DNA of 49,658 nt. Origin: a virus. Under the pieces are notes generated by a model. That model did no database searches, had not been told where the DNA came from, and was given only the letters and a program-made list of their open reading frames with translations. This document shows, piece after piece, positions 14,143-49,658 of this stretch. A program made the translations under genes and the position numbers. Positions within the stretch are counted from its first letter, which is position 1; each line of letters begins with the position of its first letter. The stretch spans positions 1 through 49,658 of IMG/VR virus record IMGVR_UViG_3300045999_010429. One strand, given 5' to 3'.

Positions 14143-14152
14143 ACTATTTATT

Positions 14153-14572: not shown

Positions 14573-14640
14573 GTTGGCTATTTGCGAATTATTCCTTACA
14601 TTACTTTATTAACGTATTTTTAAACTTAAAACTATAAGTT

Positions 14641-21887: not shown

Positions 21888-25096
<3,209 letters not shown>

Positions 25097-25115
25097 CTTT
25101 ATTAAAAGAACCGTT

Positions 25116-25580: not shown

Positions 25581-25597
25581 TTAAAAATACAAAGGTT

Positions 25598-25950: not shown

Positions 25951-25951
25951 T

Positions 25952-26791: not shown

Positions 26792-26792
26792 T

Positions 26793-26933: not shown

Positions 26934-26947
26934 AAATAATTAAACGT

Positions 26948-27037
26948 ATGATAGCTGTAGCAGCGATCGTAGTGCTTATTTTTGTAGCCGTGTACGGAAC
27001 TATCGATATGTGGAAGCAAACAAGAAAGCTGAAATGA
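26948..27037 (+). CDS. Tiny membrane peptide (29 aa) coupled to Smr gene
   Basis: ATG at 26948 encodes a hydrophobic helix (MIAVAAIVVLIFVAVYG) and a basic tail ending at TGA 27035-27037. Its stop overlaps the ATG at 27034 as ATGA. The overlap and the charge pattern (hydrophobic helix then KQTRKLK) suggest a genuine gene or a coupling leader for the Smr protein. Confidence 0.45.
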   Translation: MIAVAAIVVLIFVAVYGTIDMWKQTRKLK

Positions 27038-27240
27038 AAAAATTAGATCTACACGGACTCTCTCACCTAGAGGTTGAGGATAAAGTAGAGAACTTCGTTT
27101 TATTAAACGAACCGCCTTTCTGTATTATAACAGGTTATTCAGAGAAAATGAGAGAGATTGTTAAGCTAATACTTAATAAACACCGTTTACAGCACTATAT
27201 TCCAGCACATAATGCCGGAGAAATAATTGTAATAGATTAA
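27034..27240 (+). CDS. Smr-domain protein
   Basis: From the ATG at 27034 the product is 68 residues, essentially only an Smr (small MutS-related) domain. It has an N-terminal LDLHGLSHLEVEDKVENFV, then CIITGYSEKMREIVKLIL in place of the usual TGxG loop, and a C-terminal strand. Smr domains bind or nick branched DNA or cleave RNA. The LDLHG motif is retained. A GTG at 27010 would lengthen it but overlaps the upstream peptide. Its place inside the que cluster does not reveal a role. Confidence 0.72.
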   Translation: MKKLDLHGLSHLEVEDKVENFVLLNEPPFCIITGYSEKMREIVKLILNKHRLQHYIPAHNAGEIIVID

Positions 27241-27245
27241 AGTAT

Positions 27246-27506
27246 ATGAATCAAAAAACAACAGCTGAAAGCTTCTACGAAGCCATCAAGCATGTAGGCG
27301 CCGGAAGCCTCTACTACCTCACCCGCAAAAAGGACTCTAAAACAGACTTTGTTTTTGAACCTCTCGTTATTGATACAAAAGACAAGGAGTTGACCGTAAA
27401 GATTTTACAAAGGGCAATGGAGCACCCCGACTTCATAGCTTTTCCTGGAACCCCCGAAGCCTACAACTTTATGCGCGGGGAAGTTGACAATACGACTGAA
27501 AAATAG
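27246..27506 (+). CDS. Hypothetical protein
   Basis: The 86-residue soluble protein has SFYEAIKHVGAGSLYYLTRK at the N-terminus and a FIAFPGTPEAYNFM segment. The family is unknown to me. It follows the Smr gene by 5 bp and belongs to the same run of small genes between queE and queC. Confidence 0.6.
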   Translation: MNQKTTAESFYEAIKHVGAGSLYYLTRKKDSKTDFVFEPLVIDTKDKELTVKILQRAMEHPDFIAFPGTPEAYNFMRGEVDNTTEK

Positions 27507-27518
27507 TATATTTAAAGA

Positions 27519-27755
27519 ATGACAATAACGTTAACACAAGAACATCTGTATATAGGTATTATAGCGTTTTTAGGCTTTTTACAGTTAGTGCAGTGGAAGT
27601 CTATTAAAAAGCTGCAAGATGAATGCGACAAGTTATGGGAGCAGTTAGGTACCCTGGTGTCTGGAGTAAGTAATCAGATAATCTCTATTCAAAAAGACCT
27701 TAACAGTAAAGAAGATAAAAAAACCGGTTCTGAGGCTAATCGGGATACAAAATAA
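27519..27755 (+). CDS. Small membrane-anchored coiled-coil protein
   Basis: This 78-residue protein has a membrane helix at about residues 9-26 (YIGIIAFLGFLQLVQW), then a coiled-coil segment (SIKKLQDECDKLWEQLGTL) and a polar tail. It could be an i-spanin-like or simply a membrane accessory protein; the sequence does not decide. TATATTTA lies just upstream of its ATG, with TTGA 19 nt before that. Confidence 0.55.
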   Translation: MTITLTQEHLYIGIIAFLGFLQLVQWKSIKKLQDECDKLWEQLGTLVSGVSNQIISIQKDLNSKEDKKTGSEANRDTK

Positions 27756-27782
27756 TACGCTTCTAACTCTAATTTTTAACAG

Positions 27783-28736
27783 ATGAAAAAACAAGCAGTG
27801 TTATCATTGTCGGGCGGGATGGATAGCTCTACCCTACTCCTGCACCTTCTTGCAAACGGTTTTCAAGTAACAGCACTATCTTTCGACTACGGCCAAAAGC
27901 ACCGTGTTGAACTTGAGCGCGCTAAATCATTAGTAGATTATATTAATGATAGAATGTTTTATACTAAACAAGATAACTATGTAAAGCATCAGGTTATCAA
28001 ATTAGACGGACTACAACAACTTCTCAACTCAGCACTTGTTGAAGGAGGGAAAGATGTTCCTGAAGGGCATTACGAGCAGGATAATATGAAAGAAACAGTA
28101 GTACCTAACCGTAATAAAATATTCTCCTCTATCATACAGGCAGTTGCTTTATCTATAGCGACAAAGCCGATTGGAGATGACTGTTCTGTAGGTCAAGAAG
28201 TAGCTATTGCATTAGGTATTCACGCAGGCGATCACGCCATTTACCCGGACTGCCGTCAAGAATTTAGAGACGCCGATATGGAAGCTTTTAGAATGGGTAA
28301 TTGGAATTCAGAACTAGTAGGATTTTATACTCCGTATCTCTATACCGATAAGCTTGGCATTTTACAAGACGGTGCCATGTGTTGTGAAGGGTTGGGATTA
28401 GACTTTAACGAAGTGTACAAACGTACTAATACAAGTTATAAACCAATTCAAATCGGTAACGTATGGTACTCGGATTATAAATCAGCAGCATCAGTAGAAC
28501 GTATTGAAGCATTTACTAAACTAGGACGTCCTGATCCTGTTGCATATGCAAACGAAACCGGTCCTGTAAAATGGGAAGTAGCAAAAGAATATGTAGAGCA
28601 GGTATTATCAAAGTATGCTGAAGAGAAAATGAAAGCTAACGCTATTGCTAATCCTCCTATGTTAGAAGGTACTGATAAAGCCTACTCTCCCACAGCTTTG
28701 TCTTACCAGCACGTAGCTACAGAAGGAAGAAGTTAA
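27783..28736 (+). CDS. queC: QueC-like 7-cyano-7-deazaguanine synthase lacking the zinc cysteines
   Basis: The 317-residue protein has the N-type PP-loop SGGMDSS at residues 9-15 and further QueC marks (FDYGQKHRVELERA, VVPNRN). It is longer than typical QueC (about 225 residues). The zinc site of QueC (SC followed by CxxCxxC) aligns with TNTSY and NVWYSDYKSAASVERIEAF at about 212-236, where all four cysteines are replaced. It should convert 7-carboxy-7-deazaguanine to preQ0, which the downstream QueF would use. The altered site may change stability or product, so activity is not assured. Confidence 0.82.
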   Translation: MKKQAVLSLSGGMDSSTLLLHLLANGFQVTALSFDYGQKHRVELERAKSLVDYINDRMFYTKQDNYVKHQVIKLDGLQQLLNSALVEGGKDVPEGHYEQDNMKETVVPNRNKIFSSIIQAVALSIATKPIGDDCSVGQEVAIALGIHAGDHAIYPDCRQEFRDADMEAFRMGNWNSELVGFYTPYLYTDKLGILQDGAMCCEGLGLDFNEVYKRTNTSYKPIQIGNVWYSDYKSAASVERIEAFTKLGRPDPVAYANETGPVKWEVAKEYVEQVLSKYAEEKMKANAIANPPMLEGTDKAYSPTALSYQHVATEGRS

Positions 28737-28765
28737 ACTAGCAGTAAAACCTAAATAATTAAACT

Positions 28766-29548
28766 ATGGCATTAATAAGTCACGAAATACCTAAGCAGCT
28801 GTTTCCTTATCACGATCTTATTAGCGATTATCCCTACGTATTAGGTCATTTGCTAAATAATGATCGACAGTATACAGAGTTTTATAAAGAGAAACTTAAG
28901 ACTGCCCCTTACTCTATATTGGATAACTCTGCTTTTGAACTCGGTCAATCAATCCCAGGAGAGGAGTTGTACGAGCTTGGAGAAGAGTTTCAACCTACGC
29001 ACTTAGTGCTTCCCGATAAAGTAAATGACTACCGGCAGACTATGGAGAATGCTGTAGAATATCTCGGTAATTATAGGTCGGATAAAGTGAAGTACATCGG
29101 AGTATGTCAAGGAGACACATTTGAAGATATTGCTGATTGTATTGATTTTTATACTGAAAAAGATATTGATATTATTGCATTGCCTTTTGACCTAGTACCA
29201 GATTCTGACTACGTGACAGTACGTTTTCGTTTCTTGAATTGGTGGTATTCTAATAGGTATCGCTTTAGCGGCCGACTTCACAAATTCCATCTACTTGGAT
29301 GCCAGAATCCGGTTGAGTTTCAGCTTTTTAAGTATAATCAACAGCATTTAACTAGTTATATTTATTCCTTGGATACTAGCTCACCTATTGTAAATGGATG
29401 GTCAGGAAATAAACTAGGACCTAACGGTCTTACCGCTCCTAAACCAAAAGCTAAATTAGCTGATAACCTAGATATTGAACTGTCTAAAGAGCAGCTTGAA
29501 TTAATTTTTGATAACGTTAAAACTTTTAGAACTTATGTCAGTAAGTAA
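28766..29548 (+). CDS. dpdA: DpdA-like DNA transglycosylase (TGT family)
   Basis: The 260-residue protein follows the tRNA-guanine transglycosylase/DpdA pattern. ILDNSAFELG holds the equivalent of the conserved Asp in the TGT DSGGF motif. THLVLPDKVNDYRQT, GVCQGDTFEDIADCI, HLLGCQNPVEF and SLDTSSPIVNG (second conserved Asp) follow. Phage DpdA proteins exchange guanine in DNA for a 7-deazaguanine base. Its place between queC and queF strongly supports a DNA modification role rather than tRNA queuosine. The specificity (preQ0, preQ1 or a derivative) cannot be read from the sequence. Confidence 0.76.
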   Translation: MALISHEIPKQLFPYHDLISDYPYVLGHLLNNDRQYTEFYKEKLKTAPYSILDNSAFELGQSIPGEELYELGEEFQPTHLVLPDKVNDYRQTMENAVEYLGNYRSDKVKYIGVCQGDTFEDIADCIDFYTEKDIDIIALPFDLVPDSDYVTVRFRFLNWWYSNRYRFSGRLHKFHLLGCQNPVEFQLFKYNQQHLTSYIYSLDTSSPIVNGWSGNKLGPNGLTAPKPKAKLADNLDIELSKEQLELIFDNVKTFRTYVSK

Positions 29549-29549
29549 T

Positions 29550-30458
29550 ATGAATGAAGCGGCTTCGCGGTCGCTTGGATCCGCAAACTCTTATGCGGTT
29601 TATACAGATAAATTTGATCCATCGCAGTTAAACCCTATGCCGCGTATTCTTGCACGTCAAGACTGGGGAATTAAGGGAGATGAGTTTGTAGGATACGATG
29701 TATGGCATTGTCATGAAGCTACTTTCCTTCTTAACAACGGTCTTCCGGTAGCAGGTACTTTAAAGATTATCTGTCCCTCTGATTCGGAGTTCATGGTAGA
29801 GTCTAAGTCTTTTAAGCTTTACCTGAATACTTTCGATATGTGTAAGATGGGAGCTACTATGGACGAAGCGATTGCTAATTACGAGAATCAAGTGAAGGAA
29901 GATGTTAGTGCTTGTATTAAAGCAAACGTAGAGGTAGCCTTCTTTAAGTCCGGTGATGATAAAGCTAAGGTAGCAGATCCTACTGCCGGGTATTTAGATT
30001 TATATAGAGCTATTCCAGAGGGCGAATTAGAGAAGATGGAGATTACCGACTATAATGCTACTGGCGAATACTATCTTGTGAGCCTTGACGGTAATACAGA
30101 TGGAGAAGAGGTTAATTACTTCACTAACGTATTGAGATCTCGTTGCCGTCATACAAAGCAAAAAGATACAGGCGCGGCCTACTTTACTATTAAAACCAAG
30201 CAAGGAGCCGTAGATAAGAAAGGCCTCTTAAAGCTTGTAATTTCACTTCGCGAAGTAAATGAGTTTCACGAATTCTGTGCTGAAAAGCTCTATACAGAGA
30301 TTATGTCTAACTCTCTAGTAGAAGAATGCTGCGTAATGCTACTCTACTCACGCCGCGGTTCATTAGATATCTGCCCGGTACGTGCTACTAAGCCTTCTAT
30401 GATTCCTGCAGCTCTTAAATCTAAGTTTTACTACACTCAAAAAGCGATGGGACAGTGA
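29550..30458 (+). CDS. queF: QueF, NADPH-dependent preQ0 reductase (bimodular type)
   Basis: The start is chosen at ATG 29550, directly after the dpdA stop (TAATATG); ATG 29535 is possible. The product is about 302 residues, similar to E. coli-type bimodular QueF. It carries ESKSFKLYLNTFDM, the active-site Cys and Asp in RSRCRHTKQKDTGAAYF, the His/Glu in NEFHEFCAEKLY and RRGSLDICP. All catalytic positions look intact. It reduces the nitrile of preQ0 to the aminomethyl group of preQ1. A reductase here implies that the phage base is preQ1 or made from it. Confidence 0.9.
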   Translation: MNEAASRSLGSANSYAVYTDKFDPSQLNPMPRILARQDWGIKGDEFVGYDVWHCHEATFLLNNGLPVAGTLKIICPSDSEFMVESKSFKLYLNTFDMCKMGATMDEAIANYENQVKEDVSACIKANVEVAFFKSGDDKAKVADPTAGYLDLYRAIPEGELEKMEITDYNATGEYYLVSLDGNTDGEEVNYFTNVLRSRCRHTKQKDTGAAYFTIKTKQGAVDKKGLLKLVISLREVNEFHEFCAEKLYTEIMSNSLVEECCVMLLYSRRGSLDICPVRATKPSMIPAALKSKFYYTQKAMGQ

Positions 30459-31015
30459 CGAAGCTACAGAAAGACTGGGCAGTACTGGTATCACAAACAG
30501 CATCAGAGGTTATTGCTATAAGTGAAGAGCTTGGGTTTTTCCCAAGCCTTCTCATAACCAACAATCTTCGTAAGATACCCCAAAAGAACCTAGAGATCCT
30601 TGGGAAAAACGGTGTAGAGATAAGGACCATTCCCTTCAATCCAGTAATGGAGAATTATCTCATTCCAGAATTGTTAGAAAAGAAGCTAATAACCTTACAC
30701 GGATTTTTACGAATTCTACCGCCAGGCTTTTTTAACCAGTTTAAAGGAGGGTTCTACAACGGTCATCCCGGACTTATAACCAAGTATCCGGAATTGAAAG
30801 GGAAAGATCCGCAGGTTAGGGCTTGGGAAGGTAAATATCCTACGATCGGTTCCGTAGTACATAAGGTAACAGAGGGGGTAGATGAAGGAGAGGTAGTAAA
30901 TTTTAGCGCTATTCCTAACGTAGCAACAACTCTTGATGAGGTATTTTATGCCCTTCGTAGTACTTCCCTTGAAGCGTGGAAAAGCTTTTTTACAAATACT
31001 TGGAAATTTGAGTAA
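30455..31015 (+). CDS. Formyltransferase of the GART/PurN fold in the 7-deazaguanine operon
   Basis: The 186-residue protein starts at GTG 30455, overlapping the queF stop as GTGA, so the two are coupled. It has formyltransferase features: FLRILPPGFF, the active-site Asn and His in YNGHPGLI, and a GSVVHKVTEGVDEGEVV segment with the conserved Asp. These enzymes move a formyl group from 10-formyltetrahydrofolate to an amine. Coupled to QueF, whose product preQ1 has a free primary amine, it may formylate preQ1 or the base in DNA. A plain role in purine synthesis is less likely given the context. Confidence 0.8.
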   Translation: MTKLQKDWAVLVSQTASEVIAISEELGFFPSLLITNNLRKIPQKNLEILGKNGVEIRTIPFNPVMENYLIPELLEKKLITLHGFLRILPPGFFNQFKGGFYNGHPGLITKYPELKGKDPQVRAWEGKYPTIGSVVHKVTEGVDEGEVVNFSAIPNVATTLDEVFYALRSTSLEAWKSFFTNTWKFE

Positions 31016-31030
31016 AAGTCTGTATATTTT
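31000..31030 (+). promoter_or_regulatory. Host-type promoter TTGG-N19-TATATTTT
   Basis: TTGG at 31000-31003 and TATATTTT at 31023-31030 are 19 nt apart, the same spacing as the sites at 1028 and 16514. It lies 13 nt before the next ATG and overlaps the end of the formyltransferase gene. Confidence 0.45.
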
Positions 31031-31043
31031 ACAAAATACTTAG

Positions 31044-31553
31044 ATGAAAATACTACTTGGATCTCACGGAACTGGTAAAACTACCTTATTAAAGGAGGTA
31101 TCTACTAAGTTTCCTGAATACTACGTTACTGACGGTTTTTCTAGGCCTGTTATTAAGATTGGAAAAATGCTTGAGTTATCTAATAACGAAAAGCAGTATG
31201 CTATTAATGAGCTATCGGCCTGGGCCTATCAAAATTACCTTACTCATAAGAATGTAATCAGTACCCGAAGTATTGTAGACTGTATTATCTACTCCCAGAT
31301 TCTAGCCCCTGAACTTGATATCGAAAATCTCGTCACTCTATTTGAAGAAACTAAAGATCAGGTAGAGTATTTCTTTTATATTCCGGTTGAGTTTGATTAT
31401 GTAGCCGATCCAGACCGCTTAAGTCATGAATTGCAGCTTAAGATTGATGGCGTAATAAAAGAGTTTATGGTAAAGTACATACCTAAAGAAAAAGTCGTTA
31501 TATTAACAGGAACAGTAGAAGAGCGTTTAAATCAAATATCTAAATACCTATAA
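31044..31553 (+). CDS. P-loop nucleoside/nucleotide kinase-like protein
   Basis: The 169-residue protein starts with a P-loop GSHGTGKTT at residues 7-15. STRSIVDCIIYSQI and YFFYIPVEFDYVADPDRLS fit small AAA_28/thymidylate-kinase-like P-loop kinases. The substrate cannot be assigned. It lies 3 bp before folE and behind a host-type promoter, so a role in nucleotide or cofactor metabolism is likely. Confidence 0.72.
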   Translation: MKILLGSHGTGKTTLLKEVSTKFPEYYVTDGFSRPVIKIGKMLELSNNEKQYAINELSAWAYQNYLTHKNVISTRSIVDCIIYSQILAPELDIENLVTLFEETKDQVEYFFYIPVEFDYVADPDRLSHELQLKIDGVIKEFMVKYIPKEKVVILTGTVEERLNQISKYL

Positions 31554-31556
31554 TAC

Positions 31557-32267
31557 ATGAGTAGAGATAAACACATCAACATTGAAGAGTTAGAACTTGC
31601 CAAGGCCGGACACGCTAATGGGATCAGTACCTACCTTCGAGATGCAATTTTAGAAGGACGTCATTCACTGTCTGACGGCGAAAAGCAACGGATTATCGAA
31701 GCAGCAGCCGTACATTACGGAAAGTTTTTAACCACCTTGGGTGTAGATTGGGAGAATGATCCTAATAGCTCTAATACACCAAAGCGAGTAGCTAAGGCTT
31801 ATGTAAACGATAAATTTGCAGGCCGCTTTAATCCTTTAGCAGAAATAACAAGCTTCCCGAGTGATGGCTATACTGGAATAGTACAGGAAAGTAATATACC
31901 TGTTACTAGCGTCTGCAGTCACCATCATGAAACAATTTTAGGTCTTGTATCAATTGCATACGTACCTAGTGAAAACGGTAGAGTGGTCGGCTTGAGTAAG
32001 TTAAACCGCATTGTAGAACATTTTGGTAGGAGAGGAGCAATTCAAGAGCAATTGACTGTAGCTATTCATAATGCAGTAGATAAAATTTGCGAAGGAAACT
32101 TAGGCGTAGCTGTTATGGTAAATGCTACACACAATTGTGTAAGTTGCAGAGGAGTTAAACACCAAGGTGCTTCCATGCAAACTACGAAGCTATCAGGCTG
32201 CTTTTTAGAAGAAGACTCAGCAAGAGCAGAATTTTATAAAAATATTGATTTGGCTATTAAGAAGTAG
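31557..32267 (+). CDS. folE: GTP cyclohydrolase I
   Basis: The 236-residue product carries GTP cyclohydrolase I motifs. These include the zinc-site CSHHHE in VTSVCSHHHETILGLVSIAY, GLSKLNRIVEHFGRR, the QEQLTVAI helix, and CVSCRGVKHQGASMQTTKLSG with the second zinc Cys. It opens GTP to dihydroneopterin triphosphate, the first step toward 7-deazaguanine, and so completes the FolE-QueD-QueE-QueC-QueF set in this window. Length and motifs match cellular FolE. It lies 3 bp after the kinase-like gene. Confidence 0.93.
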   Translation: MSRDKHINIEELELAKAGHANGISTYLRDAILEGRHSLSDGEKQRIIEAAAVHYGKFLTTLGVDWENDPNSSNTPKRVAKAYVNDKFAGRFNPLAEITSFPSDGYTGIVQESNIPVTSVCSHHHETILGLVSIAYVPSENGRVVGLSKLNRIVEHFGRRGAIQEQLTVAIHNAVDKICEGNLGVAVMVNATHNCVSCRGVKHQGASMQTTKLSGCFLEEDSARAEFYKNIDLAIKK

Positions 32268-34601: not shown

Positions 34602-35617
34602 AACTAGACAAGTATAATAAACTGCGGTTGAAGCTCGAGGTGCATAAGCTCGAGCAAAACTATTTTACCCTAGATAGAATACTGTACTACTTTTCTTTTC
34701 TAGGTAATATCTTTTTGATCTACTTTGGATACTTTTTTGTAAAGTCTATTACAGACAGTATTCCACCGCTATTCCCTTTCCAGAATACTTTTTTTACTAT
34801 TTTTGTAGCTCTCTTTCTTACTGGGTATGAACTTACAAAACGGTTTGTACTAGAGCAGCTATCGATTAGCATTTTACAAATCAAAAAGTTCACCGCCACT
34901 ATTGCCATTGGATCTCTTATCTGTTTAGGTTTAATTGCAGGAAGCTTTTATCTTTCCATTAAAGGAGCTCACAGACTTATAGATAATACTGAAACGATTC
35001 AAACTGTAGTAGAAGCTACCACCTCTCAAAAAGCAGATTCAGTAGCAAGCTATTACGACAAGGAGATTCAGTACTACAGAAATCAACCGACTAAAACTAG
35101 GACTGATAGACAGTACCGGGACTCTATTGTAGCTACCTTACAGCAAACTAAAGATGCTAAGTTGAAAGAGATAGAGGGTAAGTCTCAAGAAAAGGCTGCT
35201 ACAAAGCTTGGCGAGAGCAGTGAAAATTCCACAGCATTCTTCTTTATAACAGTATTTCTTGAATTGCTTATCCTAATAGGGGTAGGGTTTAATGCATTCT
35301 ATACTATAGGTAGTTACGACGAAACTAAAAAACTTTTACAAACTCCCAAGTTCAAACAGTTGGAGCTTAACTTAAAACTTCTTAGATTGTATTATCAGAA
35401 CGGTAAGAAGCTAGCTAACGATCCTACACTATCGTATAACAAGTTTCAATCCCTGGTACAGACACAAGGTATTTACTGCTCACAAAAAGACTTAAAAGCG
35501 TTTATTACCCTGTGCCAGGAGTTAGAAATTGTTAGAGATTCCAGAGGTAGGAGAAAAGAGTTAACAATGTCTTACGATGAAGCGAAAAAACTGATAGAGA
35601 ATCAAGAAGGATTATGA
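34598..35617 (+). CDS. Membrane protein with extracytoplasmic coiled-coil, unknown function
   Basis: The 339-residue protein starts at GTG 34598, overlapping the bS21 stop. It has about four membrane helices (near residues 30-50, 63-82, 98-124 and 212-235). A charged, partly coiled-coil loop lies between the third and fourth (SQKADSVASYYDKEIQYYRN). The soluble C-terminal domain looks helix-rich, like a winged-helix (YNKFQSLVQTQGIYCSQKDL). It overlaps the polymerase gene by 4 bp, so it is coupled to both neighbours. I do not recognise the family. Confidence 0.65.
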   Translation: MKLDKYNKLRLKLEVHKLEQNYFTLDRILYYFSFLGNIFLIYFGYFFVKSITDSIPPLFPFQNTFFTIFVALFLTGYELTKRFVLEQLSISILQIKKFTATIAIGSLICLGLIAGSFYLSIKGAHRLIDNTETIQTVVEATTSQKADSVASYYDKEIQYYRNQPTKTRTDRQYRDSIVATLQQTKDAKLKEIEGKSQEKAATKLGESSENSTAFFFITVFLELLILIGVGFNAFYTIGSYDETKKLLQTPKFKQLELNLKLLRLYYQNGKKLANDPTLSYNKFQSLVQTQGIYCSQKDLKAFITLCQELEIVRDSRGRRKELTMSYDEAKKLIENQEGL

Positions 35618-37926
35618 TGCAAGAAAAAAGTTATGTCACGGTCAACGATAAGGAGACCTTCAAGCAATTAGTACAGCACATTACAGAAAGCGAATATGTA
35701 GCTTTCGATACCGAGACCGATAGTCTGAACATGCGTAAAGGCAAGATTATCGGTTTCTCTGTCTCTGGTGAGGTCGGGAAAGGGTTTTATATGCCTACAA
35801 TGGTCTGGAACGGAGAGCGTTTACAGGAGTTGTTAATAGAAGGTAAAGGAGCACACGAATTAGCTAAGTTTGCTATTACAAAGCTCGTAGATAAAAAGCT
35901 TATCTGTCATAACGCCTCCTTCGACTTACGGTACGTAAAGAATTTTTACGGTGTTGATTTACTGCCCTCTCTTCATGCAGATACTTCCCTAATCGTACAC
36001 ACAGTAAAAGAAGAAGGTGCATTCGGATACGGTAATCCTTTTGGTTTGAAATCCATTGCAATAATGGTTCAGAAGGAGATTGGTTTAGATGTAGAGACTG
36101 AAGCTAACGAAGAGCAGATTGCTCTAAAAGAAAATATTAAAGCTAACGGAGGTTCTACTTCGAAAGATAATTTCGAAATCTACAAAGCAGATATGGAGAT
36201 ACTTTCCAAGTACGCTGCCGCCGATACCGACCTTACCCTCCGTATCTATAACCACTTCTATCAGATTCTAGTTCAAGAAGGCTTGGAGAAGTTCTTTTTT
36301 GAAGACGAAGTAATGCCCGTATATAGAGAGGTTACTATACCAATGGAGGAGCATGGTATCAGACTTGATATCCCTTTAATAGAGCGTACCAAAGAGAGTA
36401 TAACGAAAGACTTACAGGAGCAATCTGAGATGATTGTTAAAGAGCTATTAAAGGAATCGAAGGTAAGAGCGTGGATTATTGATCAGGCCGTGGAAGCATA
36501 TCCGCCTAAAAGTAAGGGCACGTTTGCTCAACGTCTTCTAGAGCAGAATGGAGTAGAGCTCCCTAAATCCGAAAAGACCGGTAAGTTTACCATCAATAAA
36601 GCAGCTGTTACCGCACTACCTCCTTCAGTTATCAAGGATTTCTTGATGACTGGCGATATAGAATGTCTCAGCAAAGATCAGATTGTAAAGGCTAGTTTAT
36701 CTCTTTGGAAAGAAGATAATGACGGGCAATTTTTCAATATCCAGTCTAAAGATCAAATGGGTAAGATTGCCTTCGACGTATTGGGGGAAAAGCCTATCTC
36801 AAATACTACCAAAGGTAAGCCGCAGTTTGATGAAGACATGATTCAGTCTATCAAGGACAAGTATGCTTGGGCAAAGCATTTACGCCTCTATAATAAACTC
36901 ACTAAGATCAAAACCGCATATATTGACCGGTTTCTTGATGCAGCAGAAGATGGTAGATTCTACCCATATTTTAAGCAGAACGGTACCGTATCGGGCCGTT
37001 ACGGATCAGACATGCAGCAGTTACCTAAGCCGCTTGAACCTGGACAAGACGAGGAAATGATTATGAACTACACAAACGTAGTTCGTGCATTTTTTATTGC
37101 CGACGAGGGAGCTAAGATACTCGATACCGACTATGCATCTCTAGAGCCTAGAGTGTTTGCTACTGTAGCAGGCGACCAGGGATTGAAAGATATCTTTAAT
37201 AATGATTTAGACTTCTATTCTCACATTGCTATCAAAACTGAGAAACTAGAGGGAGTAAGTGCACATACTAAAGCACCTAATTTCCTTAAAAAGGTAGATC
37301 CGGTTAAGAGACAAACTGCTAAGGCTTATTCACTAGGTGTGCCGTACGGTATGTCTGGATATGCCCTTGCAATGTCTTTGGGTGTAGATAGGAAAGAAGG
37401 GGAGAGACTTGTAGAAGGTTATCTAGATGGATTCCCTGAACTGAGAAAGTGGAGAGAAAACTCACGTGCGTTTGTAAAGGAGAATGGTTACATTAAGAAT
37501 AAAGTAGGGCGTATTAGACATCTCCCTCAAGCTAAAGAGATCTATAATATCTTTGGAGATAAACTTATTGAAGATTGGCGATTTAGGAAGCAAGTAGAGC
37601 AGGAGTACGGAGCAGAAGCTGCAACTAATCTATATAGAGATTATAAAAATGCTCTAAACAACGTTTTAAACTTTCAGATTCAAAGCTATTCAGCTAGTAT
37701 CGTAAATAGAGCTGCTTTACAGATTAATCGTAGGTTTAAACAAGAAGGAATAAACGGCCAAGTGATTTGTCAGATTCATGACCAATTAATTTGTCAGGTA
37801 AAAGACGAAGATGTAGAGAGAGCTTGCCCAATCGTTCAAGACTGTATGGAAAATACAACTAAATTAGACGGGGTAGATCTTATAGCGATTCCAGAAGTGG
37901 CAAAAAATTTCCGTGACGGACACTAG
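35614..37926 (+). CDS. polA: DNA polymerase I family protein with 3'-5' exonuclease
   Basis: The 770-residue polymerase has an intact N-terminal proofreading domain (Asp32 and Glu34 in AFDTETDSL, later HNASFDLRY and AAADTDLTLRIY). A complete family A polymerase domain follows: motif A DTDYASLEPRVFA near 504-516, motif B RQTAKAYSLGVPYG, and motif C QIHDQL with His722-Asp723. No 5'-3' exonuclease domain is present; a separate FEN gene lies at 16938. This is probably the main replicative polymerase. It starts inside the end of the preceding membrane protein gene (ATGATG). Confidence 0.93.
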   Translation: MMQEKSYVTVNDKETFKQLVQHITESEYVAFDTETDSLNMRKGKIIGFSVSGEVGKGFYMPTMVWNGERLQELLIEGKGAHELAKFAITKLVDKKLICHNASFDLRYVKNFYGVDLLPSLHADTSLIVHTVKEEGAFGYGNPFGLKSIAIMVQKEIGLDVETEANEEQIALKENIKANGGSTSKDNFEIYKADMEILSKYAAADTDLTLRIYNHFYQILVQEGLEKFFFEDEVMPVYREVTIPMEEHGIRLDIPLIERTKESITKDLQEQSEMIVKELLKESKVRAWIIDQAVEAYPPKSKGTFAQRLLEQNGVELPKSEKTGKFTINKAAVTALPPSVIKDFLMTGDIECLSKDQIVKASLSLWKEDNDGQFFNIQSKDQMGKIAFDVLGEKPISNTTKGKPQFDEDMIQSIKDKYAWAKHLRLYNKLTKIKTAYIDRFLDAAEDGRFYPYFKQNGTVSGRYGSDMQQLPKPLEPGQDEEMIMNYTNVVRAFFIADEGAKILDTDYASLEPRVFATVAGDQGLKDIFNNDLDFYSHIAIKTEKLEGVSAHTKAPNFLKKVDPVKRQTAKAYSLGVPYGMSGYALAMSLGVDRKEGERLVEGYLDGFPELRKWRENSRAFVKENGYIKNKVGRIRHLPQAKEIYNIFGDKLIEDWRFRKQVEQEYGAEAATNLYRDYKNALNNVLNFQIQSYSASIVNRAALQINRRFKQEGINGQVICQIHDQLICQVKDEDVERACPIVQDCMENTTKLDGVDLIAIPEVAKNFRDGH

Positions 37927-40736: not shown

Positions 40737-41513
40737 ATGGAAACCAACAAAGCCCTGCTAGACATTGTCTTTAGCCACCGAAACAAACAGTACGGCGCGT
40801 ACGAATTGAGATCAAATTATAATAAGAGGATCAACCGGGCTCTACTTATCACCCTTGGGTTAGCAGGTGCTTTGGTTTCCGCTTATGCGTTTAAGGATAA
40901 TAAGGAGTTTACTAAACCGATCTACACTACCACTGAAGTAACGATTACTGAGATTAGAGAGAAGGAAGTAAAACCGCCTCCACCTCCTCCACCTAAAGAA
41001 GTTCAGACTACCCAACCTACAACCGTTAAGTTTACTGAACCTATAATAGTAGATCAGCCTGTTGAGCCTATACCTGCTCAAATTGATATACGTGGATCTG
41101 AAATAGGAACAGTAAATATAAAAGGTGATACTTGTCTAATTGCTCCACTACCCGGAATAGATGGAGGTACTGGTATTGTTGATGTACCTACTGAACCTGA
41201 TATATTCGAGCGAGTTGAAATTGAAGCTGAATTTCCAGGCGGAATAAATAAATGGAGACAATACTTGGAGAGAAACTTGAGAGTAGACAGCGACATACCT
41301 GAAGGCACCTATGCTGTGCTTATTCAATTCGTAGTGGATAGAGATGGTAATATCAGCGATGTAATCGCCTTAACTGATCACGGCTACGGAATGGAAGATG
41401 AAGCCAAGCGAGTAATCAAACGCGGACCTAAATGGAACCCGGCAATCCAAAACGGACGTGAAGTTAAAGCATACCGTAAACAATTAATTACATTCCAAAT
41501 AGGAGGAGATTAA
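40737..41513 (+). CDS. tonB: TonB-like energy transducer, Bacteroidetes type
   Basis: The 258-residue protein has all parts of a Bacteroidetes TonB. These are the cytoplasmic N-terminus (RNKQYGAYELRSNYNKR), one membrane helix at about residues 34-52, a Pro-rich periplasmic linker (KPPPPPPPKE), and a C-terminal TonB domain (IEAEFPGGINKWRQYLERNL, IQFVVDRDGNISDVI, KWNPAIQNG). TonB couples the proton gradient to outer-membrane importers. A phage copy could sustain nutrient uptake or change use of TonB-dependent receptors by phages. It ends convergently with the reverse-strand fiber gene, overlapping by 4 bp. Confidence 0.88.
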   Translation: METNKALLDIVFSHRNKQYGAYELRSNYNKRINRALLITLGLAGALVSAYAFKDNKEFTKPIYTTTEVTITEIREKEVKPPPPPPPKEVQTTQPTTVKFTEPIIVDQPVEPIPAQIDIRGSEIGTVNIKGDTCLIAPLPGIDGGTGIVDVPTEPDIFERVEIEAEFPGGINKWRQYLERNLRVDSDIPEGTYAVLIQFVVDRDGNISDVIALTDHGYGMEDEAKRVIKRGPKWNPAIQNGREVKAYRKQLITFQIGGD

Positions 41514-43913: not shown

Positions 43914-44429
43914 ATGAGAGCCTTTTTAACTATATTGTTTCTATGCGTATATAGCGTACTAGCTGCCCAAAAAGCAGTGCCTTCGGGTGAAATAAATCCG
44001 CTTACATCTCTCTACACTACAGTACAGGTCAGGAATGTTACCAACAAAGTAAAAGTAGGACCTCTAACAGGGAATAAAAATCTCGCATTTGGGGTTAAGA
44101 ATATTGTTGAAGAAGTAGTGTTAGATAAGGGATATGACTTAAGTGATAGTTCGGAACTTAGACTAGATTTAGAAATAATTTACTTTGATGTACAGCAAAC
44201 ATCAACTGGTGTAAGTGTATTTCATAAGACTGAAAATGAAACAATAATTAGAATAAAAGGTATTCTCTATACAGATAGTAAAAAATCAAAAGAGTATATT
44301 GCAACAGGTAAAAGTTCCGAAGTATCTACCTCAACTATGATTATCGATGAAGGTGGTGGTTTTAATCAAGCGTCAGCTCGTTCTGCCCTTAAGAAAACCA
44401 TTATTAACCTAATCGATAAACTACTATGA
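43914..44429 (+). CDS. Secreted CsgG-related protein, short paralogue
   Basis: The start at 43914 is chosen because it gives a signal peptide (MRAFLTILFLCVYSVLAAQ); the frame continues upstream to 43884 without a better start. The 171-residue product shares a pattern with the CsgG-like protein at 46947. Both have FGVKNIVEEV against GLGVTNIVVEF, an EIIYFDV strand, a middle strand followed by EYIATG, and a final conserved helix. It is probably a periplasmic or outer-membrane partner. It overlaps the next gene by 4 bp. Homology is by my visual alignment. Confidence 0.6.
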   Translation: MRAFLTILFLCVYSVLAAQKAVPSGEINPLTSLYTTVQVRNVTNKVKVGPLTGNKNLAFGVKNIVEEVVLDKGYDLSDSSELRLDLEIIYFDVQQTSTGVSVFHKTENETIIRIKGILYTDSKKSKEYIATGKSSEVSTSTMIIDEGGGFNQASARSALKKTIINLIDKLL

Positions 44430-46318
44430 AAAGACTGTTATTAGCATTTTTGCTTCTAATTAGTTTTGCTTCTTATTCACAAACACCACAAATCGGTCAC
44501 TTCCAAACTCTAGCTACTGTTAGAAGAGGAGACACCTTAGATGTAGCCTGGTATTACACACCAGGTTCACCTGATATTCGTACATTTCAGGTTGACTTTC
44601 AGTACAAGAAAACATTATTAACTTATTTATCTACTACAGTCGATGCTACTGTGAACGGAATGACTCCGGCAGTAAGTTACAGGACTTGGGATAACTACAG
44701 GTATAATAACTATTCGAACGGAACTTACACTTACTTAACTAATCCGGATTGGACAGTAGGACGCAACTACTTAGTACTATCGAGCGGTAATACTATCAAC
44801 TCTGGCGGTTATATTATTCATAACAAGTATAAAATTAATGCTGTAGCTCCAAATTACGCTTCTGATACAATTACTGTAAACTGGGCTCGTATGTTTGATG
44901 TTAACGGTAATACGATCGGAGATAACGTAGCTCAGCTTACAAATCAAAAGTTAGCTATCAAGCTACTAGGGAACTTAACATTATCAGGTAAGGTATGGTT
45001 AGGACCGCAGATGAACTTAAGACCTGTAGTTATCTGCACTCAAGCTAATAACGGTGCATTTATCGACTCAGTAACCGTAAATGCTGATGGTACCTATACC
45101 TTGGATAATATCGATGAAAATACTCGCTATAAACTTGAACTTAAATTCCCAGCAGCACTCGCCTCAATTAGAGATAATGCTGTAACAATAGCTGATGCTG
45201 TTAAAACATACGACGAATACACTAATACAGATGTTAACCAAACATTCCCAAGAACATACTTAAGAAACGGATTAGCATATTTAATTGCTGATATTAACAA
45301 AACAGGTACATTAGATGGTGGCGATGCTTACTCAATCTATGCTTCAGTCTCAGGCTTAAAGCCAATTGATACAGCTAAAGTACTAAATGTATTTAGTAAA
45401 AATGCTTATGATTCATTAGCGTTAGGGCAAGATCAATGGATAGCATGGCCTGGTAATATTAACGGTGTAAATTATATCTTTGACAGTGTAGGTACAGTTA
45501 ACTTAACAAACGTTGATATTAAGTACTTCCTCTTAGGTGACGTTGACAGAACACATTCATCTCCGGTGTTTGATGCTAACGGTAACTTAGTAGCTGCAGC
45601 TAGATATATTGGAACACTTGATGTTAATATTCCAAATGTAACCGCCCCGACAGGTCAAGCAATGTATGCTAACTTTAATATCAATACAAACGGTATTAAA
45701 AATGATGGCTTACAGTTTGAAATGAAGTATGATCCGACTAAGGTTAAGTTTGAAGAAATAGTATCAAACATTCAAGGACCATGGTTACAGTATTTAACTC
45801 ACGATGATGCTAACGGTATTATTCGTTTTGGAGGAATGAATAACCAAGTACTAGGATCATTAACAGGTAATGCAACTCCATTCAAATTAAAATTCTCTCC
45901 AATCGGCAATAACGATATTATGACTAACTTATATGTTAGAAGCTTAATGGATGCTGCTGATAGAAATGGAGATCATTTCAATATCAATTTACAATCTGAT
46001 TATGTAGTATTATCTTCAAGACGAGCGGTAGTACAAACACCTGAAGGTGAAATCTCAGCTACAATCAGACCAAACCCAACAAGTGGGTTCTTTGAATTGG
46101 TAGTAGTATTCCCTAAAGCAAACATGGATGCTTTAGCTATGGTATACGATATTCAAGGTCGTAAAGTTAAAGATATTGGTAAGATATGGAGTGATCAATA
46201 TGTAACTACCGTTATTAAGCAGGTTGATTTGACGTCTGCAGCTAATGGTAATTATTTATTAGTAGTAAATAACTTAGAAGATAATAAACGCTTAGCAAAA
46301 CAATTCATTAAAATTTAA
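44426..46318 (+). CDS. Secreted protein with dockerin/cohesin-like parts and type IX sorting domain
   Basis: The 630-residue protein starts with a signal peptide (RLLLAFLLLISFASYSQ). Around residues 285-312, LIADINKTGTLDGGDAYSIY resembles a dockerin calcium loop, with a second GDVDRTHSSP near 369. Residues about 420-530 (GLQFEMKYDPTKVKFEEIV) resemble a cohesin-type beta-sandwich. The last 85 residues (IRPNPTSGFFELVV, VYDIQGRKVKDIG, NGNYLLVVNN, ending KQFIKI) match the C-terminal sorting domain used by the Bacteroidetes type IX secretion system. It is therefore predicted to be displayed on or released from the infected host surface. Confidence 0.8.
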   Translation: MKRLLLAFLLLISFASYSQTPQIGHFQTLATVRRGDTLDVAWYYTPGSPDIRTFQVDFQYKKTLLTYLSTTVDATVNGMTPAVSYRTWDNYRYNNYSNGTYTYLTNPDWTVGRNYLVLSSGNTINSGGYIIHNKYKINAVAPNYASDTITVNWARMFDVNGNTIGDNVAQLTNQKLAIKLLGNLTLSGKVWLGPQMNLRPVVICTQANNGAFIDSVTVNADGTYTLDNIDENTRYKLELKFPAALASIRDNAVTIADAVKTYDEYTNTDVNQTFPRTYLRNGLAYLIADINKTGTLDGGDAYSIYASVSGLKPIDTAKVLNVFSKNAYDSLALGQDQWIAWPGNINGVNYIFDSVGTVNLTNVDIKYFLLGDVDRTHSSPVFDANGNLVAAARYIGTLDVNIPNVTAPTGQAMYANFNINTNGIKNDGLQFEMKYDPTKVKFEEIVSNIQGPWLQYLTHDDANGIIRFGGMNNQVLGSLTGNATPFKLKFSPIGNNDIMTNLYVRSLMDAADRNGDHFNINLQSDYVVLSSRRAVVQTPEGEISATIRPNPTSGFFELVVVFPKANMDALAMVYDIQGRKVKDIGKIWSDQYVTTVIKQVDLTSAANGNYLLVVNNLEDNKRLAKQFIKI

Positions 46319-46329
46319 AATCAAATATC

Positions 46330-46662
46330 ATGTCAGAAGAACAATCACAAGACCATAACGACGGAACTTGGTCAGGACTTAAAAAAACAATCATTGGTAC
46401 TTTAAGTACAGCTGTATTAGGTGCTGGTACTTGGTTTACGACTACTTTCTTCGGTGGTCATAAAGAAGATAAAGAAGAACCTAAAACAGAACAAGCCGCT
46501 CCTGCTGCAACTCCCACTATTGTAATCAACAATACTCAACAGCAACAACAAGCTGCTAGTGGTGGAACTAAGGTAATTGAGCGTGTAGTTGAAAAACCAG
46601 CTGCTAAACCAGCTGAACCAGCTCCAAAGAAAAAAGAGTTTTCAGAAGAACCAAAATGGTAA
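46330..46662 (+). CDS. Membrane-anchored Pro/Ala-rich protein, possible lysis accessory
   Basis: This 110-residue protein has a polar N-terminus, one hydrophobic segment at about residues 20-41 (IIGTLSTAVLGAGTWFTTTF), and a long low-complexity tail rich in Gln, Pro, Ala and Lys. There is no cleavable signal. It might be a spanin-like or holin-like membrane protein, given the holin-like gene 21 bp downstream, but this is uncertain. Confidence 0.52.
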   Translation: MSEEQSQDHNDGTWSGLKKTIIGTLSTAVLGAGTWFTTTFFGGHKEDKEEPKTEQAAPAATPTIVINNTQQQQQAASGGTKVIERVVEKPAAKPAEPAPKKKEFSEEPKW

Positions 46663-46683
46663 TAACCCCTAAAAATCAAAAGT

Positions 46684-46947
46684 ATGAAATGGTTTAAACA
46701 GTTGTTCGACGATGACAACACAATTAATGAAAAATCGGTTGTTGGATTCTTAGCTTTCCTTATGATGGTAGTCGCTTTAGGTGTTGACATCGTTACTGGA
46801 TGGCTTGGTAGAGAGTTCATGATTAACGAGTTTATCTTCGATGGCTTTATGGTAATTGTTTTAGGTTCATTCGGTATTGGATCTATTGACAAATTCATTA
46901 ACGCTAAGAAAGGTACTAAATCAGAAGAAGCTCCAACTGAAGAGTAA
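46684..46947 (+). CDS. Holin-like two-helix membrane protein
   Basis: The 87-residue protein has a short charged N-terminus, two membrane helices (SVVGFLAFLMMVVALGVDIV and FMVIVLGSFGIGSI) and a charged Lys/Glu tail. This is the general layout of small phage holins or holin-like DUF proteins. Its stop overlaps the next start. No endolysin lies next to it, so the lysis role is an inference. Confidence 0.55.
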   Translation: MKWFKQLFDDDNTINEKSVVGFLAFLMMVVALGVDIVTGWLGREFMINEFIFDGFMVIVLGSFGIGSIDKFINAKKGTKSEEAPTEE

Positions 46948-47669
46948 TGAAGAAGTTAATCTTGTGGCTTTGTACCTCACTAATAATGTGGGGTGCAAAT
47001 GCTCAAGTTGTAGGTAAAACTACAACTGAAGACTATAAGGCTTCGTTTGAGAAGAAATCGAACATAGATAGCCTTTTAGAATACGATGGCCCTAAGATTC
47101 CTATTCAAATTCTAAGTTTAGGTATTAGCGAAGATGTTTATGCTATGTATCCTGAACTAAAGGATAAGCGTGTTGGATTAGGGGTAACAAACATTGTAGT
47201 CGAGTTCTTAGAAGAAACCAATCATTTTACCTTTACAGAAGATAAGACCGAGATTAAAAATAGAATGGTCAAGCAGTTTCAAGCTAGCCAGTCTGGAATT
47301 ACCGAGGATAAGTTGGATGGGAGAGGTAAAATCAGATTAGCTCATTATTTCGTTTATATTGAATGTTATGATTTCTCAGTTTCAGAAGACGAAACTGTAA
47401 ATATGAAAGACGGAGTTAAAAACACCGTCGTAACTCGTTTAGGTCTGCAAGTTAAATTCGTTAACGCTGAAACAGGAGAATATTTCACCGGTTCCGGTCT
47501 AGGAGAGGCTAAAACAGTTAGAGAATTAACTCTAATGAACGATGATAACTTTTCAGAAGTTAAATTTAATCAATCAACAATAGGTACTTCGACTAAGAAA
47601 GCGCTTGAGATAGCTGCCGGTAAAATACTACTGCGCATGCACAAGAAAGGTATCTTTAAACTTCAATAA
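46947..47669 (+). CDS. CsgG-like curli secretion family protein
   Basis: The 240-residue protein has a signal peptide (KLILWLCTSLIMWGANAQ) without a clear lipobox. Its CsgG-like body includes RVGLGVTNIVVEFLEETNHF, then IKNRMVKQFQASQSGITE, LQVKFVNAETGEYFTGSG and a C-terminal helix. CsgG forms an outer-membrane pore for amyloid subunit export in bacteria, and CsgG-like genes are known from several large phages. Here no CsgA/B-like subunit is evident, but a T9SS cargo and low-complexity outer-membrane protein are neighbours. It overlaps the holin-like gene by 1 bp and has a shorter paralogue at 43914. Confidence 0.72.
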   Translation: MKKLILWLCTSLIMWGANAQVVGKTTTEDYKASFEKKSNIDSLLEYDGPKIPIQILSLGISEDVYAMYPELKDKRVGLGVTNIVVEFLEETNHFTFTEDKTEIKNRMVKQFQASQSGITEDKLDGRGKIRLAHYFVYIECYDFSVSEDETVNMKDGVKNTVVTRLGLQVKFVNAETGEYFTGSGLGEAKTVRELTLMNDDNFSEVKFNQSTIGTSTKKALEIAAGKILLRMHKKGIFKLQ

Positions 47670-47683
47670 AATGAAGAAATTAA

Positions 47684-49165
47684 TTGAAAAAATTAAGATC
47701 ATATCTAATTTTATTAAGCTTATTGTTGATAAGCTGTTTAAAAAGTAACGGGCAGACCCTTACCTACCAATTTATTGATCCCTGCACTAAGGTTATAACC
47801 TACTTCTCCGTTCCTGCTACAGGAACAACAGTATTTTTTTTAGGTAAATCAGCGCAATTTACTTCAGCTGATGTTACTAGCGGAGCATTCGGTGCTTGGG
47901 TAAACCAAGCTTATGCCGATTACAGAAAGATATCGCCTTGTGGACAGCAACAAGGACAGGTAATACAGAATCAAATTACATCTCAAATTATTAGCAATAC
48001 AGTACAGAGTGTAGTGAGTAGTATTATGAGCCAAGCTCAATCAGCTGCTTCAGGTACTATTGACAACACTCCGTTAGCAGGAGGTACTGATGCTGCTGGA
48101 AAAAATAACAAAGAAAGCAGTAACAAAAAATCTAAATCAAAAAATGGAAACAATAGCAATAATAATATTCCTGCTACTACTAGCAGCAATAGCGGTAATG
48201 GGAGCGGTACAAATGTTTCAGGAACTGGCCAAAGCGGGAACAATACTCCTAAAAATAATAATGAATCTGGGACAGGGGCTGGGAATAATACTAGTACTGG
48301 CGGGAGCAGTAATGGTAGCTCTAATCAAAGCGGGAGCTCTCAAACTAGCAGCTCTAGCTCGACTACATCTTCTCAATCCTCTCAGAACAATAAAGCTGGG
48401 GAGAAAGGAGAAGAAGTAGCTGCTACTACGACAATGAATATTGATCAACAAAACCAAAATAGTTCCAAAGACAATAACGGAAGCAGCAAAGGAAAAAACG
48501 GAAAGAACGGAACAAATAACCCTATCATAGTATCATCAGATTTTACCACAGCTCAGAATCTAGATAAGACATTTACCCCTATACTTAATTTAAGTATGTC
48601 TCAATCCTCAATGACCGGAATGTCGAGTTGGGGACTAACATCGATGATATGGTTTAACCTAAAACAGTTTGCTATATCAGGAAAATACACTAAAATTAAC
48701 TTTAGTAAGAATGGTAAACTGAAGTGGGTACATAACATTAACTTAACCAGCGTTTATTCATATGGAAATATAATTGGATTTGTAGGTTATAGCGGAATAC
48801 TAAATGCTGGAAAATGGGGAGTTACCGGATTTAATGCCAGTGCTGCTATGACACTGGTAACTGGAGATCAAAAGAATACGTTTGTATCTCCTTCTTTCAC
48901 TGCATTCTACACCAAACCATTTAAGGGGGGTAAGCGTTTAACTGTATCTCCTGAATTATATGTTATATCCACTCCACTACTGTATTCAACTAAAGATAAA
49001 GTGACAACAACCGATAGGACGTTTAGTGCTTTTATTGGCAGCGGTTTTGATTATCAAATAACAAGACGGTTCAAGCTTAACATGAACTATAAAGCAAACA
49101 TGTCTACCAATCCAGACTTTCCTGTTTTATCATTCTTTCTAATAGGTAGTAAGGTTAATTTATGA
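47684..49165 (+). CDS. Secreted low-complexity / outer-membrane barrel protein
   Basis: The only start available in frame is TTG 47684, directly after a TAA. It gives a signal peptide (KKLRSYLILLSLLLISCLKS) with a lipobox-like LISC and a possible cut before QT. After a 110-residue N-domain comes a Ser/Asn/Gly/Lys low-complexity region (about residues 125-275). The C-terminal 200 residues are strand-rich (LTSVYSYGNIIGFVGYSG, FSAFIGSGFDYQITRRFKL), like an outer-membrane barrel. An ATG at 47671 in another frame begins a 25-codon ORF, and an A6 run at 47687-47692 joins the frames, so a frameshift or a base error is possible. It overlaps the next gene as ATGA. Confidence 0.68.
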   Translation: MKKLRSYLILLSLLLISCLKSNGQTLTYQFIDPCTKVITYFSVPATGTTVFFLGKSAQFTSADVTSGAFGAWVNQAYADYRKISPCGQQQGQVIQNQITSQIISNTVQSVVSSIMSQAQSAASGTIDNTPLAGGTDAAGKNNKESSNKKSKSKNGNNSNNNIPATTSSNSGNGSGTNVSGTGQSGNNTPKNNNESGTGAGNNTSTGGSSNGSSNQSGSSQTSSSSSTTSSQSSQNNKAGEKGEEVAATTTMNIDQQNQNSSKDNNGSSKGKNGKNGTNNPIIVSSDFTTAQNLDKTFTPILNLSMSQSSMTGMSSWGLTSMIWFNLKQFAISGKYTKINFSKNGKLKWVHNINLTSVYSYGNIIGFVGYSGILNAGKWGVTGFNASAAMTLVTGDQKNTFVSPSFTAFYTKPFKGGKRLTVSPELYVISTPLLYSTKDKVTTTDRTFSAFIGSGFDYQITRRFKLNMNYKANMSTNPDFPVLSFFLIGSKVNL

Positions 49166-49658
49166 GGCTACTACTCACCATACTGCTATTCCCATTCGTA
49201 CTATTTGGACAATCTATCACTGCCCCGCCAGGCAGAACTTATCAAGTAAACGTTAGTGGACAAGATGCTAGTGGGTTTGTAATCAGTGGATTTGGAACTG
49301 AAACACTACTAACATCGATTAGTTTAGTTAATCCACCATCAGGTACAACATTTAATATAACCACAACAACAGGTTTAACTGCAGCAAGTGGATTTACTTT
49401 AACTGGGAACAAAACACGTTTAGTATTTACAGGAACCATTGCTAATGTTAATAATGCATTAGCATCTTTAAAAGTTAACACTGGCTCAATACTTGGAAAT
49501 GTTCAAATATCAGTAGCCACAACTGTAAACCCAGCAGGATTTTTCTATAATGGTGTAAATGGACACTTTTATAGACCAATATCTGCTGGTAACACATACA
49601 CTGGTGCACGAGCAGCATCCTTGGCAACAACATTCAAAGGCCAGCAAGGATATCTGGT
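49162..49658 (+). CDS. Secreted lectin-like protein, 3' truncated by window end
   Basis: ATG at 49162 overlaps the previous stop (ATGA) and the frame is open to the window edge, giving at least 165 residues. The signal peptide (MRLLLTILLFPFVLFGQ) is followed by a Thr/Ser/Gly-rich beta domain of about 110 residues. Then comes a segment with FYRPISAGNTYTGARAASLA and GQQGYL that resembles the start of a C-type lectin-like domain. Binding to glycans on host or neighbouring cells is inferred. It continues the envelope cassette of signal-peptide genes. Confidence 0.7.
   Translation, partial: MRLLLTILLFPFVLFGQSITAPPGRTYQVNVSGQDASGFVISGFGTETLLTSISLVNPPSGTTFNITTTTGLTAASGFTLTGNKTRLVFTGTIANVNNALASLKVNTGSILGNVQISVATTVNPAGFFYNGVNGHFYRPISAGNTYTGARAASLATTFKGQQGYL

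Follow-up and report, generated by a model that had tools for sequence, protein, structure and literature searches.

A candidate envelope-remodelling cassette with a type IX secretion cargo in immuto-related phages of Bacteroidota

Introduction

What use would a tailed phage have for a run of genes whose products appear built to leave the cytoplasm of its host? The question is raised by positions 43914-49658 of the IMG/VR virus record IMGVR_UViG_3300045999_010429, where seven genes, here P1 to P7, follow one another on one strand. The whole stretch of 49,658 bases is referred to below as the window. One of the seven, P2, ends in a predicted sorting domain of the type IX secretion system (T9SS), a system known to serve gliding, adhesion and the secretion of enzymes. 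An earlier account, made from the letters alone and referred to here as the sequence-only reading, proposed that the phage exports surface proteins through the host's T9SS and thereby remodels the infected cell for superinfection exclusion, aggregation or carrying virions.

On balance, and with modest confidence, we favour the reading that tailed phages of Bacteroidota related to immuto would use the run, a conserved cassette, to remodel the envelope late in infection by way of the host's Sec pathway, outer-membrane assembly and T9SS. Our analysis partly confirms what the sequence-only reading observed and partly supports how it interpreted the run.

Results

The seven-gene run recurs across more than 100 related viral loci, a count somewhat inflated by contigs that entered under two locus identifiers. 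Relatives of P5 are encoded by at least 591 stretches, 80 of which were kept for analysis, and scans for cassette relatives found P2 in 57 loci; across the scanned P5 and P2 loci the gene order P1-P2-P3-(P4)-P5-P6-(P7) is kept. Outside the run the window, a tailed-phage fragment, has the gene content of a large tailed phage (a UvsX-like recombinase, DnaB helicase, ribonucleotide reductase, a split family A DNA polymerase and 7-deazaguanine genes). Its nearest isolate is Flavobacterium phage immuto (vB_FspM_immuto, NC_055915), which infects Flavobacterium sp. LMO8 and whose polymerase is 56.5% identical over its whole length. One block of immuto likewise holds a lectin (gp013), a dockerin-like protein (gp014), a cohesin protein with a T9SS tail (gp015) and the counterparts of P3 (gp016), P5 (gp017), P6 (gp018) and P1 (gp019). 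It differs from the window in that P2 is represented by two genes, the lectin comes first, P1 comes last and the P4 homologue is found together with the holin and endolysin, at a distance of about 30 kb. The immuto record names the lectin and the cohesin protein; no export cassette is named there.

Host DNA joined in assembly, a danger that the sequence-only reading had itself raised, was checked for and is rejected: the block being present in many viral contigs as well as the isolate immuto, we take its genes to belong to the phage, as that reading had assumed. The bacterial genome collection yielded only two cassette loci, L140 on a short contig of a Flavobacterium metagenome-assembled genome (MAG) and L141 on a 254-kb MAG contig. 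The latter also encodes a capsid homologue and is for that reason very likely phage; a search of the L140 and L141 genomes for the capsid family PF03864 gave no match. In a 168,946-base relative of the window, G001, the major capsid protein is 63% identical to that of immuto. The same relative carries two major-capsid-like genes in tandem at 60985-64430, with identities of 63% and 62% to the capsid protein of immuto. Near-identical cassettes (L115-L118) lie on contigs of 137, 182 and 321 kb; those of 321 kb could come from a jumbo relative or from faulty assembly.

Five of the products, P1, P2, P5, P6 and P7, have N-terminal signal peptides. When cleavage sites were called by a simple script rule, not by SignalP, glutamine stood at +1 of a plausible signal peptidase I (SPI) site in 33/53 relatives of P1, 54/56 of P2, 40/44 of P5, 37/38 of P6 and 25/25 of P7, counts far above the four to six or so per protein that shuffled sequences predict. 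Most SPI substrates of Bacteroidetes show glutamine once cleaved (PMC5837995). Judged by these features, the five products carry host-type Sec/SPI signals, that is, they are predicted to be built for Sec export in Bacteroidota. The surface proteins have ratios of nonsynonymous to synonymous substitution (dN/dS) of 0.04-0.25, and diversifying selection on them was not seen.

P2 combines an N-terminal Sec signal peptide with a C-terminal Ig-like sorting domain, the two marks of a T9SS type A cargo. Between them lie an N-terminal domain, a CarboxypepD_reg-like and dockerin-like part (about amino acids 190-385) and a cohesin (about 386-545), with the sorting domain at about 546-630. The window protein matches Por_Secre_tail at E 3.0e-7 in a single-genome search and falls below threshold in an hmmscan against all of Pfam (E 2e-4, 22 bits against a cut-off of 27). 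Relatives pass that cut-off; the family is matched by 26 of the 56 aligned P2 members (best 1.6e-10), and TIGR04183 by 21 (best 9e-12). Across 24 aligned tails the PNP, D, G and GxY motifs are invariant and sit at the very C-terminus, dN/dS of the tail is 0.08-0.16, and each of 12 related records has at most one Por_Secre_tail match. P2 is thus predicted to carry a T9SS type A tail of canonical form, on which purifying selection acts. A search of the Protein Data Bank (PDB) sequences with a P2 profile returned nothing, and the idea that the N-terminal domain is a second cohesin was unsupported (hhalign E 0.46).

In a second group of P2 proteins, about 27% identical, the protein stops straight after the cohesin, and the next open reading frame (ORF) encodes a lipoprotein of about 114-131 amino acids. 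The domain of this lipoprotein resembles the T9SS tail itself (hhalign 8.7e-6; Por_Secre_tail matched in 11/27, best 9e-4). Among 130 full-length P2 ORFs, a set that was not dereplicated, 89 have the tail motif without the lipoprotein, 36 the lipoprotein without the tail and five were scored as neither, two of which (L015 and L066) visibly do have the lipoprotein. An acidic residue, D or E, occupies +3 after the cysteine in 21/27 of the lipoproteins, and acidic residues after the cysteine recall the surface-export consensus of Flavobacterium johnsoniae lipoproteins, SDDFE (PMC5080379). From these sequences we infer that tail and lipoprotein may be two alternative routes to the cell surface. 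A programmed frameshift that would add the tail to tailless P2 is rejected, since the downstream ORF has a signal and a stop of its own and encodes a lipoprotein independent of P2.

The cohesin is detected in 33/56 P2 relatives (best 5e-11). Immuto gp015 (36.7 bits) and the P2 of L141 (36.8 bits) exceed the curated cut-off of 24.1 bits, under which the window P2 falls at 18.4 bits. Amino acids 190-385 of P2 are homologous to the C-terminus of P7 (hhalign E 1.9e-21, against 0.15 or worse for controls). In this shared module one half keeps a DxNxxGxxDxxD loop intact and the other is degenerate; a GDVN-type motif closes the module. In immuto the two parts of P2 are split into gp014, which is dockerin-like, and gp015, which holds the cohesin (5.9e-9) and the T9SS tail (2.4e-8). 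Both proteins have signal peptides of their own; aligned to the fused P2 of L141, gp014 covers amino acids 1-375 (E 4e-59) and gp015 amino acids 405-592 (E 3e-27). Because the two parts are fused in one phage and separate in another, with the break falling between them, it is suggested that the dockerin-like part binds the cohesin part, which would amount to non-covalent display. L141 itself (12284-14783) is an immuto-like block on a MAG contig and encodes a P7-like dockerin-like protein without the lectin domain.

Full-length relatives of P7 have 476 amino acids (an example is L006 12362-13792), and Lectin_C is matched in all 25 of those examined. The EPN and WND calcium-site motifs are present in the P7 of L006 and in immuto gp013 (Lectin_C E 3e-15 for gp013); such motifs are associated with mannose-type sugars. 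P7 is accordingly classed by sequence as a predicted C-type lectin. A variant of 768 amino acids at L014 4481-6787 has a cohesin-like domain behind its dockerin-like module. The lectin accompanies a tailed P2 in 25/28 distinct cases and a tailless P2 in 3/31, a pattern that follows clades and is not corrected for kinship. Both the sugar-site motifs and this co-occurrence would suit a role in adhesion, in which displayed lectin and cohesin stick infected cells to other cells, algae or particles and so help the phage to spread. A late lytic cassette, however, leaves little time for adhesion to pay, and P7 is missing from many relatives; we regard this explanation as quite unlikely.

P5 is conserved best among the genes of the block, with 53% identity to immuto gp017, and its similarity to CsgG lies in the predicted fold. 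The top 19 Foldseek matches of its model (pLDDT 71.6) are all CsgG, the best being 4uv2_F (E 1.6e-8, TM-score about 0.5), whereas the sequence has no Pfam match at E<=1, and so none to CsgG, and no match among PDB sequences at E<=10. We therefore describe P5 as clearly CsgG-like by modelled fold and not by sequence. As to the two membrane-inserting beta-hairpins that a CsgG outer-membrane pore would need, the model has long strands at residues 134-195 but a charged hairpin tip, and an alternation scan was ambiguous. This fold invites the idea that P5 is a CsgG pore that exports a phage substrate, be it the low-complexity P6 or another protein. P5 shares its overall fold with CsgG (4uv2, 6l7a), but it lacks a lipobox, its SPI-type site with glutamine having no cysteine there; no Pfam match to the curli substrate CsgA/B or its partners CsgE/F was found among the cassette proteins, the block being without curli genes, and P6 appears itself built as an outer-membrane barrel. 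Curli-like export is the least probable of the explanations that we weighed.

P1 was modelled with higher confidence (pLDDT 84.5) and matches the wider LptE/PelC/FlgT/CsgG fold: Foldseek places Cj1090c (6e-6), PelC (2e-5) and also LptE ahead of CsgG (1e-4). Pfam Lipoprotein_16 is matched by 27/53 relatives (best 5e-5), a PDB sequence search with a P1 profile returned nothing, and hhalign relates P1 to P5 (E 5.7e-6) as distant paralogues. A role as the surface-exclusion protein TraT was considered and rejected, with weak matches in 3/53 relatives (best 0.0018) and TraT absent among the 50 Foldseek matches listed.

P6 is predicted from sequence to be an outer-membrane beta-barrel. A C-terminal beta-signal, G-x-x-Phi-x-Phi, is present in 38/38 relatives and alternating segments occur in the C-terminal part, giving a layout of secreted N-terminal domain, long low-complexity linker and a barrel in the C-terminal 210 or so amino acids; its cysteine is not conserved, and the idea that P6 is a lipoprotein is rejected. 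L141 12284-14783 also encodes a second outer-membrane-barrel-like protein. P3 has one transmembrane segment and a disordered tail rich in P, A, Q and K, is 58% identical to immuto gp016 over 67 amino acids and ends in tryptophan, as do all ten of the commonest endings in relatives (117/118), mostly PKW. This terminal tryptophan looks like a short binding motif. P4 has two transmembrane segments, is 50% identical to immuto gp192 and often adjoins the endolysin in relatives; profile searches gave no family match for it.

The block is tied to lysis genes in most relatives, and late expression is therefore probable. Of 124 loci carrying P1 and P5, 92 have an endolysin of the immuto gp191 type no more than 5 kb away on the same strand, upstream in 50 of them (median 242 bases between match ends) and downstream in 42. 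In immuto, gp192 directly precedes endolysin gp191 and holin gp190. No endolysin lies beside the block within the window, whose end cuts the block off. In L023 the order is P4, a spanin-like protein, endolysin, P1, P2, lipoprotein, P3, P5, P6 and a fibre-like protein of 1722 amino acids.

This gene linkage makes it a serious alternative that the cassette is a lysis accessory carrying out the outer-membrane step, with P3 and P4 in the inner membrane, P5 and P1 as periplasmic rings, P6 as the outer-membrane component and the surface proteins loosening or marking the envelope. The linkage extends to the holin-like P4, and the protein set would span inner to outer membrane. Yet L023 already has a separate spanin-like protein (N-terminal transmembrane segment, 210 amino acids) between P4 and the endolysin, L006 has a short protein with one transmembrane segment and an NlpC/P60 protein downstream of P7, and in immuto about 30 kb separate the cassette from the genes for holin and endolysin. 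Lysis, moreover, needs neither a T9SS-exported cohesin protein nor a lectin. Both the separate genes of spanin type and the presence of a lectin and a cohesin speak against lysis as the whole story, and we consider this explanation unlikely.

The fibre-like gene that the L023 cassette directly precedes could instead point to the virion, with some products placed on the phage particle for adhesion or decoration; lectin and Ig-like domains are known from virions. The glutamine-rule Sec signals and the T9SS tail, however, would route the products out of the cytoplasm, where tailed phages are assembled, and we see only a slim chance for this explanation.

The layout of the block is given in Table 1. 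No gap between its genes exceeds 21 bases, and at three junctions they overlap, bearing out the tight same-strand run described by the sequence-only reading, whose count of at least five signal peptides also held. Homologues favour the ATG at 43914, the start used in that reading, over a GTG at 43884 for P1. The low-complexity barrel-like protein and the lectin-like protein that it had pointed out correspond to P6 and P7. Its two CsgG-type proteins are reduced to P5, as P1 has the superfamily fold only. In its T9SS-sorted protein with cohesin- and dockerin-like parts, the tail and the cohesin stand, while the remaining part earns the name dockerin-like only. Its gene list gave the five secreted proteins but left the membrane genes P3 and P4 unmentioned.

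Table 1. Genes of the block at the end of the window
Gene	Position	Strand	Predicted product	Boundary
P1	43914..44429	+	Small secreted protein, LptE/PelC/CsgG-superfamily fold, distant P5 paralogue	
P2	44426..46318	+	T9SS type A cargo	4-base overlap with P1
P3	46330..46662	+	Single-transmembrane inner-membrane protein	
P4	46684..46947	+	Two-transmembrane holin-like protein	
P5	46947..47669	+	Secreted CsgG-fold protein	1-base overlap with P4
P6	47684..49165	+	Outer-membrane beta-barrel protein	
P7	49162..49656	+	Secreted C-type lectin	4-base overlap with P6; cut by window end

Elsewhere in the window, genes for QueD, QueE and QueC and GTP cyclohydrolase/QueF-like genes lie at 25059-32267. Immuto has such genes too and DpdA besides; 7-deazaguanine DNA modification is probable. 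The family A DNA polymerase is encoded as two distant genes (12835-14142 and 35614-37926), likewise in immuto, and a protein of 1585 amino acids (7355-12112) has an amidase/endolysin-like domain close to its C-terminus. A TonB-like protein with an inner-membrane anchor is encoded at 40737-41513 (TonB_C E 6.6e-9). It is 88% identical in L006, there a few kb downstream of the cassette, and the gene was not seen flanking most other cassette loci.

Discussion

In the envelope-remodelling reading that we favour, P2 would leave the cell via the host T9SS and then be held at the surface, a display that its sequence makes likely. There its cohesin would offer docking sites to which dockerin-like modules, those of P7 and of immuto gp013 and gp014, would bind. 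Since such modules may bind P2-type cohesins, the lectin would decorate the infected cell; its docking on the P2 cohesin is possible. P5, P1 and P6, together with P3 and P4 in the inner membrane, would make up the periplasmic and membrane part. In our judgement the most likely benefit is altered adsorption to the infected or lysing cell, either blocking superinfection or keeping progeny off debris, with cell-cell or cell-particle adhesion as second choice. A more specific version can be put forward tentatively: a cohesin-dockerin display of the phage's own, in which a T9SS-anchored cohesin scaffold and secreted dockerin-like proteins, including a mannose-type lectin, form a glycan-binding coat, and in which relatives swapped the tail for a tail-like surface lipoprotein.

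Several points weigh against the envelope-remodelling reading. It is drawn from gene sequences, for a presumed Bacteroidota host of the window phage and a putative docking of dockerin-like part on cohesin. Searches of the block found no match to the Bacteroidota promoter consensus and the -7 element at chance level only. The linkage to lysis genes would also fit a role in lysis, and the tailless P2 relatives mean that not all of these phages take the T9SS route. P7, for its part, lacks a T9SS tail that would take it across the outer membrane. Cohesin and dockerin modules are in any case common in Bacteroidota proteins. Dockerin_1, a family of two F-hand repeats, was matched in a single relative (15 bits against 22.9, E 0.002-0.02), and because this match is single and below the cut-off we call the module only dockerin-like.

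The selected tail of P2 supports the sequence-only reading's proposal of phage export through the T9SS. That reading had called such export remarkable, which needs qualifying because precedents are published. Cryophage MT820023 has T9SS type A cargo, for which its authors propose hijacking of the host system and superinfection exclusion (PMC7468147). As with P2, these are genes of a Bacteroidota phage whose products end in T9SS type A tails. The Cryophage cargo consists of endoglucanase, GH39 and PA14 proteins that are highly variable between variants (PMC7468147), whereas here a single conserved cohesin protein under purifying selection stands within a fixed envelope block. Phages of Porphyromonas gingivalis encode SPI substrates with glutamine at +1 that are proposed to modify the outer membrane (PMC10367356). 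These differ in integrating and in belonging to one species, and the parts of that report consulted here mention no T9SS tail, cohesin or lectin.

Scaffoldin-type display, the logic of the cellulosome, offers a further comparison. An anchored cohesin with separate dockerin-like proteins is common to both. The phage version would differ in its degenerate dockerin-like module, in carrying a lectin instead of an enzyme and in being anchored by a T9SS tail, and its binding is putative. Among the papers that searches of an open-access library, preprints aside, turned up on Bacteroidetes phage CsgG or on phage cohesin with dockerin, none has a title or abstract describing such a cassette. The conserved block, its lysis linkage, the switch between tail and lipoprotein and the split cohesin/dockerin-like pair look new.

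To conclude, if the reading is true, infection by this widespread group of aquatic phages of Bacteroidota fits the cell with a defined protein coat by means of the host's own T9SS. This would give the secreted accessory genes of large phages a testable function and tie genes of the lysis region to surface remodelling. It would also provide a natural T9SS reporter and, possibly, a phage-made cohesin-dockerin pair. The isolate immuto, growing on Flavobacterium sp. LMO8, lets the question be asked directly.

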